Assembly (NCBI RefSeq): GCF_009882935.1
Contig: NZ_WTVA01000001.1
Location: 310,001 to 374,000, forward strand
DNA from: Sneathiella chungangensis
Lineage (GTDB): Bacteria; Pseudomonadota; Alphaproteobacteria; Sneathiellales; Sneathiellaceae
Length of the DNA stretch: 64,000 bases
Reading direction: 5' to 3'
Below the pieces are notes generated by a model. That model was not told the DNA's origin, did no database searches, and saw only the letters and a program-made list of their open reading frames with translations. A program made the position numbers and the translations under genes. Position 1 is the first letter of the stretch; each line of letters begins with the position of its first letter. This document shows, one piece after another, positions 33,766-34,988 of the stretch.

Positions 33766-33790
33766 AATATCAGGATTTTCATTTGGCGTC

Positions 33791-33828
33791 TTGACAGAAT
33801 AAAATTCATGGATATTTTTTATCTATGA
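33791..33828 (+). promoter_or_regulatory. Promoter and near-palindromic operator of the Rrf2 gene
   Basis: A perfect -35 TTGACA (33791-33796) is followed after 16 bases by TATTTT as a possible -10. Over the -10 lies a dyad: TCATGGATA (33806-33814), TTTTT, TATCTATGA (33820-33828), eight of nine bases symmetric. It sits 17 bases before the ATG, as expected for an autoregulatory site. Confidence 0.6.
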
Positions 33829-33845
33829 TTATGAAGGGCGATTGA

Positions 33846-34352
33846 ATGAAACTCAGCGACGGCATCGAACAGGCAATCCACAGCGTGACCATGCTATGCG
33901 GACTTTCCGGCGACGGGGTCCTTTCCGCTGCGGCGCTTGCGGAGTTTCACGGCGTCTCGACGAGTTACCTGTTGAAGCATTTGCAGGCCCTCTCCGGCCG
34001 GGGCATCCTGGAAACAGTGCCGGGGCCCAAGGGCGGATACCGCCTCGCCCGCAAACCGGAGGCGATTTCGCTCCTCGATATCGTGCTCGCCGTGGAAGGA
34101 TCAGAACCTGCCTTCCGCTGCAAGGAGATTCGCCAGCGCGGCCCGAACCCCCTTCCCGCGAGCGCATTCGTCAAACCCTGTGGCATCAACAGGGTGATGC
34201 TGCGCGCGGAGCAGGCCTATCGCGCGGAACTTCGCAAAGTCACCATCGCCGACATTATTGCGGACCTGAACGCCACCGATGACGGGTCCATCAGGGAACG
34301 GGGCTGCCGGTTCCTCGCCCTTCATGAACGCAACTCGACCATCAATATTTAA
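33846..34352 (+). CDS. Rrf2 family transcriptional regulator
   Basis: 168-residue winged-helix regulator of the IscR/NsrR/CymR family. It begins MKLSDGIEQAIHSV, has a recognition helix in VSTSYLLKHLQALS (near residue 40) and the wing VPGPKGGYRLAR near residue 58. Cysteines are at 18, 92, 112 and 154; the last three are placed where Rrf2 members bind an Fe-S cluster or sense thiols, but the 92-to-112 spacing differs from IscR, so the sensed signal is uncertain. Likely controls itself and the AhpD-like gene 18 bases downstream through the dyad upstream. Confidence 0.9.
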   Translation: MKLSDGIEQAIHSVTMLCGLSGDGVLSAAALAEFHGVSTSYLLKHLQALSGRGILETVPGPKGGYRLARKPEAISLLDIVLAVEGSEPAFRCKEIRQRGPNPLPASAFVKPCGINRVMLRAEQAYRAELRKVTIADIIADLNATDDGSIRERGCRFLALHERNSTINI

Positions 34353-34370
34353 ACCAGACCAAGGAGAATC

Positions 34371-34838
34371 ATGATGCAATCAAGATTAGATTTTACCAAA
34401 GCCTCCCCCGCCGCCCTGCAGGCAGTGCTTGGGCTTGAAAATTATGTTTCCAAGCAGTCCGGCCTCGACCGGCATCTCATTCATCTACTGAAACTGCGGG
34501 CATCGCAGATTAACGGCTGCGCCTACTGCGTCGATATGCACGCCAAGGAAGCAAGGCGGAGCGGTCTGAGCGAGCAATGGATCAACCTCGTCAGTGTCTG
34601 GCGTGAATCCCCTGTCTTTGATGAGCGCGAACGCGCGGTTCTGGAATGGACGGAGGCGCTGACCAACGTCGCCGCGACCGGCGCGCCAAGCGAGACCTAC
34701 GAGCCGCTTAAAGATCACTTCACCGAGAAGGAAATCATGGACCTGACGGTGGCAATCGGCACGATCAATGTCTGGAACCGCCTCGCCGTCGGCTTCCGCT
34801 CCCAACACCCGGTCGATGAGGTGAGAAAAGCCTCCTGA
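34371..34838 (+). CDS. Carboxymuconolactone decarboxylase/AhpD-like protein
   Basis: 155 residues, all-alpha CMD fold. The redox motif NGCAYCVDMH has Cys50, Cys53 and His57, the CxxC-xxx-H pattern of AhpD-type alkylhydroperoxidases, so a thiol-dependent peroxidase role is more likely than decarboxylation. Strong ribosome site AAGGAGAATC. Downstream of and probably regulated by the Rrf2 protein, which suggests a role in peroxide, nitrosative or electrophile stress. Confidence 0.9.
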   Translation: MMQSRLDFTKASPAALQAVLGLENYVSKQSGLDRHLIHLLKLRASQINGCAYCVDMHAKEARRSGLSEQWINLVSVWRESPVFDERERAVLEWTEALTNVAATGAPSETYEPLKDHFTEKEIMDLTVAIGTINVWNRLAVGFRSQHPVDEVRKAS

Positions 34839-34872: not shown

Positions 34873-34904
34873 AAAGCCCCGAAATCGCGAGACTTCGGGG
34901 CTTT
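34873..34904. terminator. Bidirectional terminator
   Basis: AAAGCCCCGAA and TTCGGGGCTTT arms around a 10-base loop, with A-rich sequence to the left (34865-34875) and TTT to the right. It can end the Rrf2-AhpD-like transcript and the tRNA-His transcript from the other side. Confidence 0.85.
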
Positions 34905-34910
34905 GAAATT

Positions 34911-34988
34911 TGGGGCGAACGAGGGGTCTTGAACCCCCGACCTCCTGAGTCACAGTCAGGCGCTCTAACCAACTGAGCTACGTTCGCC
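34911..34988 (-). tRNA. tRNA-His (GTG)
   Basis: Complete cloverleaf with the histidine hallmark: extra G at position -1 opposite discriminator C73. Acceptor GCGAACG with CGTTCGC, anticodon stem CCTGA/TCAGG around loop CTGTGAC, giving anticodon GTG; CCA is encoded. Confidence 0.97.

Follow-up and report, generated by a model that had tools for sequence, protein, structure and literature searches.

A predicted autoregulated operon of an RsrR-type Rrf2 regulator and an AhpD-like protein in Sneathiella chungangensis

In the window analysed here, which is the whole stretch of 64,000 nucleotides taken from contig NZ_WTVA01000001.1 of Sneathiella chungangensis, a promoter and two co-directional genes occupy positions 33766-34838. 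The features of this locus and of its downstream flank, in window coordinates, are the following:

33791-33796, forward strand: TTGACA, the -35 hexamer, read from the sequence; TTGAC is conserved at orthologue loci
33806-33828, no strand assigned: operator dyad TCATGGATA-N5-TATCTATGA, a putative RsrR-type box with the core GGATA-N5-TATCY, conserved across loci
33813-33818, forward strand: TATTTT, a -10-like hexamer inside the dyad, with a 16-nt spacer to TTGACA
33846-34352, forward strand: RsrR-type Rrf2 regulator of 168 aa, with predicted ligands Glu8, His12, Cys92 and Cys112, an extra Cys154, and Gln at the Trp9 position
34371-34838, forward strand: CMD-family AhpD-like protein of 155 aa with Cys50-x-x-Cys53-x3-His57, a relative of Atu0492 (2gmy) and PA0269 (2o4d)
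34873-34904: hairpin, terminator-like for the minus strand
34911-34987, opposite (minus) strand: tRNA-His gene

The first gene encodes an Rrf2 protein (PF02082, E 6e-33), and the second, which starts 18 nt past the stop codon of the regulator, a CMD protein (PF02627, E 4e-22) carrying the CxxC-xxx-H redox site that an initial annotation of this DNA had ascribed to it. The CMD protein scores over the cut-off of the TIGR00778 domain (52.7 bits versus 27.8) and below that of TIGR00777, which describes AhpD proper. By eye, tandem ATG codons at 34371-34376 provide two possible starts for this gene.

The same annotation had placed a dyad over the predicted -10 of the rrf2 gene, downstream of a perfect TTGACA, and this arrangement holds. 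The dyad, TCATGGATA-TTTTT-TATCTATGA, with 8 of its 9 arm pairs complementary, overlies the TATTTT upstream of the regulator gene, and TTGACA and TATTTT together match 10 of 12 consensus positions. With up to 3 mismatches allowed, the dyad pattern matches only this site on both strands of the 64-kb window (shuffled windows gave a mean of 0.03 matches), and the home genome of 3.81 Mb holds one further match, at 3 mismatches. An inverted-repeat search requiring an exact seed of 6 missed the dyad, since the mismatched arm pair interrupts the seed.

Across the genus, the degenerate dyad occurs without mismatch in exactly 8 of 24 genomes, once in each and at the orthologue, and the same eight genomes hold the orthologue at an identity of at least 80%, a co-occurrence that is expected because the site lies at the gene. 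None of these eight genomes carries another perfect copy. The core RGATA-N5-TATCY is matched 16 times in the home genome (3 for a reversed-pattern control), and symmetric outer arms are found at the window site only, the others having 0-2 of the 4 outer pairs and lying mostly inside long reading frames, on which grounds a wider regulon in this genome was rejected. The best of the other core matches (in L191) is inside a 136-aa reading frame, and one more (L185) lies outside long frames and is devoid of outer symmetry. Sites with 2 mismatches were not clearly commoner across the genus than those of the reversed control, and a scan of the stretches fetched around two of them (L189 and L190) listed no core pattern there. 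The initial description of the system as autoregulatory-looking and self-contained is well supported by these searches, which gave no second full site in the home genome, as well as by the position of the dyad over the promoter at all of the 80 named orthologue loci treated below.

Among proteins of solved structure, the nearest relative of the regulator by sequence is RsrR of Streptomyces venezuelae (6hsd, E 1e-33), with homology over the full length, and the next protein, an IscR, follows at 6e-9. An AlphaFold2 monomer model (pLDDT 86.7), built from 18 own and locus sequences, predicts an RsrR-like fold as well: its best match is 6hsd_B (E 7.7e-14, TM 0.77), whereas IscR, CymR and NsrR all rank behind RsrR, the IscR and NsrR matches having E values of 5e-8 or worse. 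The [2Fe-2S] cluster of RsrR is reported to be held by two cysteines of one monomer and by the histidine and glutamate of the other (PMC11138216), with E8, H12, C90 and C110 given as the ligands (PMC9218516). High-affinity DNA binding is ascribed there to oxidised RsrR only, the reduction of which releases the DNA (PMC11138216), and RsrRs form a cluster of their own in a published similarity network (PMC9218516). In the window regulator, Glu8 and His12 align directly with those of RsrR, and the counterparts of Cys90 and Cys110 are Cys92 and Cys112. Because these two cysteines match two of the four RsrR [2Fe-2S] ligands, the signal class is likely to be the cellular redox state acting on the predicted cluster.

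Homologues at E 1e-15 or better were found in 9 of 25 genomes of the order, in 22 of 385 sampled from the class and in 30 of 398 sampled from the phylum. RsrR itself was aligned with 55 loci from searches of the order, class and phylum, 80 named loci and 12 plasmid loci, giving 148 RsrR-type rows. All 148 keep Glu8, His12, Cys92 and Cys112, a count that is biased for the 80 named loci, chosen by peptide patterns that include Glu8, residue 9 and Cys92; among the distinct homologues not selected by pattern, each of the four ligands is kept in 67 of 67. The ligand set is absent from the three other strong Rrf2 paralogues of the home genome, with Asp, Asp and Leu at position 8 and Val, Arg and Glu at position 12.

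A sensor of nitric oxide, cluster supply or iron of the NsrR, IscR or RirA type would come from the same superfamily, and the models of these regulators do match the protein weakly, but always far below their cut-offs (RirA 59.5 versus 193, SUF regulator 49.6 versus 110.65, IscR 37.8 versus 207.55, NsrR 36.8 versus 182). Moreover, the ligand-region cysteines are 20 residues apart and form no three-Cys pattern, and such roles could fall to other Rrf2 proteins of the home genome, one SUF regulator over its cut-off and one RirA/NsrR-like protein below. Membership of the IscR, NsrR or RirA groups was rejected on these scores and on the ligand pattern, and a sensor of this kind is very improbable at this locus. 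The initial annotation had singled out Cys92, Cys112 and Cys154 and their non-IscR spacing; the presence of the three residues and the spacing stand, and what is revised is their meaning, with the first two as predicted ligands and Cys154 as an extra.

The presence of the dyad upstream of orthologues, on which the initial proposal had been made to depend, was found at every one of the 80 named loci, where, no more than 120 nt from the start, at least 10 of the 12 positions of the core TGGATA-N5-TATCCA are matched (at least 11 in 74 loci and 12 in 30). TTGAC stands 9-12 nt before the dyad in 79 of the 80, as an exact TTGACA in 37, and it occurs in 1.65% of shuffled 30-nt stretches. Conservation drops in the spacer and outside the arms, so that the spacer varies while both arms hold. 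For RsrR, the primer table of PMC5015018 gives two sites at its own promoter, ACTCGGATA-CCCGA-TGTCCGAGA and ACTCGGATA-GTCTG-TGTCCGAGT, and the class 1 site ACTCGGATA-N5-TGTCCGAGT; as given there, these sites have in common with the window dyad the 9-5-9 layout and the GGATA core, and differ from it in the outer bases. A predicted site matching the geometry and core of the RsrR inverted repeat ACTCGGATA-N5-TRTCCGAGT is present, and conserved, at the promoter of the window regulator, and a core of the GGATA-N5-TATCC type recurs at RsrR-type loci of other phyla, including Actinomycetota. Judged from the sequences, it is very likely that an RsrR-type regulator controls its own operon here through the dyad.

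The likeness to RsrR ends at residue 9. In RsrR, the redox switch is attributed to Trp9, and the window regulator has Gln9 instead, without the switch residue of the RsrR type, which makes it a variant of this type and not RsrR itself. With Trp9 replaced by Gln, the transmission route of RsrR cannot be the same here, and signal transmission may differ accordingly. Residue 9 is Gln in 98 of the 148 rows, Trp in 20, Tyr in 20, Ala in 9 and Cys in 1. Cys154 is present in 93 of the 97 distinct proteins with Gln or Ala at position 9 and in none of the 40 with Trp, Tyr or Cys (137 distinct proteins in all). Of the three cysteines whose conservation was to be checked, Cys92 and Cys112 are hence general, as the unselected homologues indicate, and Cys154 belongs to the Gln/Ala9 branch only. 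In a quick IQ-TREE phylogeny of 77 rows, with SH-aLRT support only and columns 9 and 154 left out, the Gln/Ala9 group forms one side of a single branch (support 84) and RsrR falls among the Trp9 proteins. On this tree, residue 9 seems to have changed to Gln/Ala only once, and its link with Cys154 therefore amounts to one correlated history, not to repeated evidence. Cys154 itself needs 3 changes, being missing from the early branches L149 and L150 and from L017 and L153.

These residues bear on two other readings of the sensor. A thiol-disulfide switch without a cluster, similar to HypR, would let oxidants join two of Cys92, Cys112 and Cys154, by which the dyad would be freed and the AhpD-like protein induced. 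The frequency of Cys154 within the branch is consistent with it, HypR is reported to employ two widely spaced cysteines (PMC9218516), and RclX of Pseudomonas aeruginosa is described as induced by HOCl and HOSCN, though through another regulator (PMC7950407). However, Glu8 and His12 are just as invariant as Cys92 and Cys112, in the full alignment and among the unselected homologues alike, which a pure thiol switch does not explain, and Cys154 is missing from 4 of the 97 branch members and from all 40 proteins outside, all of which renders this switch unlikely. The second reading is a hybrid, where the cluster governs DNA binding and a thiol input from Cys154 replaces the Trp9 relay; it would refine a cluster-based explanation and is compatible with it. 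All four ligands are retained in the branch, a single step on the tree separates Trp9 from Gln/Ala, and Cys154 is confined to the Gln/Ala side. Against this, a single origin is one correlated event, the link of which may be due to chance, and Cys154 was seen to require 3 changes, with four proteins of the branch lacking it, so we regard the hybrid as rather improbable, if less so than the pure thiol switch.

The branches defined by residue 9 also differ in their boxes. When a 10-position core was scored over the 150 nt upstream of the regulator, at least 9 of 10 positions were matched at 100 of 107 Gln/Ala9 loci, 12 of 19 Trp9 loci and 0 of 21 Tyr/Cys9 loci, a level reached by 0.5-0.6% of Markov-resampled sequences. 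The Tyr9 branch thus keeps the four ligands and yet has no GGATA-type box at this threshold, and the ligand set and the operator are therefore separable. A different dyad, ACGCGGAY-N7-RTCNGCGT, lies near the regulator in 4 of the 21 Tyr/Cys9 loci (L026, L029, L031 and L033) and may be the operator of that branch, where the usual neighbour is an FAD/NAD(P) oxidoreductase.

Partner genes recur around these regulators. CMD lies directly 3′ of the regulator in 69 of the 80 named loci, and in the other 11 an NmrA-like gene, a cupin gene and CMD were found by tblastn; in the two of those 11 taken in full, the NmrA-like and cupin genes stand between the regulator and CMD. At L140, a Pfam search of the frame-shortened protein in the cupin position gave no match. 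By branch, CMD accompanies 107 of 107 Gln/Ala9 loci and 9 of 19 Trp9 loci, and an FAD oxidoreductase, a class pooled from two reference proteins with no match between them, 16 of 21 Tyr/Cys9 loci. At least one of CMD, NmrA-like, cupin and FAD oxidoreductase genes was found in the flanks (1.5 kb for most) of 65 of 73 tree loci, and none of the four in the flanks of L023, L024, L028, L030, L050, L053, L057 and L148, nor at the three strong Rrf2 paralogues of the home genome. The parsimony changes needed on the tree are 4, 4, 5 and 6 for the four classes. Plasmid annotations list an NAD(P)H-binding, SDR or NmrA gene at L143, L145, L146, L147 and L151, and CMD at L149 to L154.

At five Trp9 loci, the CMD gene precedes the regulator in the direction of transcription. 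Four of them (L016, L021, L022 and L052) have two overlapping boxes, 19 bp apart, immediately before CMD, and the fifth, L051, has none. L151 and L152 combine a single box at the regulator with a pair ahead of their CMD-led operon, and L144 and L148 showed no good box anywhere in the stretches scanned. That the boxes stand before CMD where it heads the operon is the strongest hint from the sequences that CMD would be a true target and not a mere neighbour. The opposite case, with the dyad as a chance or structural feature and the two genes as simple neighbours, could invoke shared ancestry, through which such gene pairs can persist, Rhizobiaceae accounting for most of the 80 named loci. But the two arms hold while the spacer varies, the same core is seen in Actinomycetota, the box moves with CMD when CMD leads, and the association with CMD takes 4 changes on the tree, so that coincidence has hardly any probability left. 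Within the genus, genome G011 has no orthologue of the window regulator and carries, at L016, a Trp9 RsrR-type regulator behind CMD with two overlapping boxes; together with the window, it presents two layouts of one idea within a genus.

As to the second gene, the nearest structure is Atu0492 (2gmy, E 9e-65), labelled only as a hypothetical protein in the structure match listing, followed by PA0269 and relatives. The 2gmy sequence is 94.6-96.1% identical to the CMD of seven rrf2-CMD pairs and 90.8% identical to that of one more, among the best eight loci listed, and hence the structure of a near-identical partner exists. Atu0492, PA0269 (2o4d) and lpg0406 are AhpD-like proteins that have in common with the window CMD protein the CMD fold and the CxxC-x3-H site. 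In PA0269, the relay residue is reported as Glu36, which in an alignment by eye corresponds to His38 of the window protein, as it does in Atu0492. PA0269 reportedly reduces hydrogen peroxide weakly, and the AhpD-like RclX is described as protecting P. aeruginosa against HOCl and HOSCN (PMC7950407). These relatives suggest, by analogy, a role of the CMD protein against thiol-reactive oxidants. The ‘stress’ role that the initial annotation proposed for the pair is a putative one.

Taken together, these observations make it rather probable that the two genes form an autoregulated operon under an RsrR-type Rrf2 repressor with cluster-based release, repression and autoregulation being read from its layout. 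The 168-aa protein would form a dimer with one [2Fe-2S] cluster per subunit, bound by Cys92 and Cys112 of one subunit and by Glu8 and His12 of the other. In its DNA-binding state, it would occupy the GGATA-N5-TATCY dyad that overlies its own -10, thereby excluding RNA polymerase, whereas a redox change or loss of the cluster would release the dyad, and the regulator and the CMD/AhpD-like thiol protein would then be co-produced until redox balance is restored. It is probable that the protein binds a [2Fe-2S] cluster through Glu/His/Cys/Cys ligands and acts as a repressor; the cluster type and the assignment of binding to the oxidised form and of release to the reduced form would be borrowed from RsrR. 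The latter assignment raises a difficulty, as the induction of an antioxidant gene by reduction would be odd, the need for such a gene being expected under oxidation. The inducing form may instead be the apo-protein or a protein with a damaged cluster, and damage to the cluster from oxidants or NO, or else a thiol input through Cys154, would fit better than reduction.

A broader reading can be offered tentatively, where the Gln/Ala9-Cys154 branch would be a hybrid sensor that keeps the RsrR [2Fe-2S] site, has discarded the Trp relay and couples the cluster or Cys154 to release by a new route, with a portable GGATA-N5-TATCC box wiring CMD, NmrA-like, cupin and FAD oxidoreductase genes to RsrR-type regulators across two phyla.

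RclR of P. aeruginosa, a member of the AraC family and, unlike the window regulator, not an Rrf2 protein, is one of the known systems to be compared. The RclR-RclX pair resembles the window operon in having a dedicated regulator beside an AhpD-like gene of the CMD family, but RclR, a homologue of the HOCl sensor of E. coli, is reported not to autoregulate (PMC7950407). SifR, HypR and SaiR are described as repressors of the Rrf2 family that act on redox or electrophile-defence genes and have operator dyads; however, the SifR/HypR operator, TGTAA-N9-TTACA, is unlike the window dyad, and these monothiol or dithiol proteins (thiol- or quinone-sensing) have their cysteines placed elsewhere and are not cluster proteins (PMC9218516). 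RsrR (Sven6563) has in common with the window regulator the ligand positions, the geometry and core of the box and the site at its own promoter, and its NmrA-like neighbour is found in 11 of the 80 named loci of this branch. They differ in Gln9 for Trp9, in the extra Cys154, and in the partner, a divergent NmrA gene for RsrR and CMD in a co-directional operon here. Moreover, 630 ChIP-exo sites are reported for RsrR (PMC5015018), in contrast with the one full site predicted in the home genome.

As far as found, RsrR has been characterised from one Streptomyces protein, the deletion of which is reported to have caused no visible phenotype in S. venezuelae, its physiological purpose being left open (PMC5015018). 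The openly licensed PMC papers searched yielded none on rrf2-CMD pairs or on RsrR homologues as such. RsrRs are already known as a group; what appears to be new is the box across phyla, the partner set common to these loci, and a branch that has Cys154 but not Trp9. Tracing the ligand set, the operator core and the partners through Alphaproteobacteria and other Actinomycetota provides a candidate core regulon of CMD, NmrA-like, cupin and FAD oxidoreductase genes. The window holds its smallest form, with one regulator, one site and one enzyme gene, and would offer a simple read-out of the signal, and the redox-relay mechanism that has been proposed can be tested directly, thanks to the natural loss of Trp9.

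Two further arrangements deserve mention. Several Rhizobiaceae genomes have two copies of the regulator (L091/L107, L109/L121 and L081/L139), one with CMD directly downstream and the other with the NmrA-like gene, cupin and CMD, and each with its own box. On a plasmid of Tsukamurella tyrosinosolvens (L154), an actinobacterial RsrR-type regulator has CMD directly downstream and a box core of 9/10, which is the layout of the window on a different branch of the tree.
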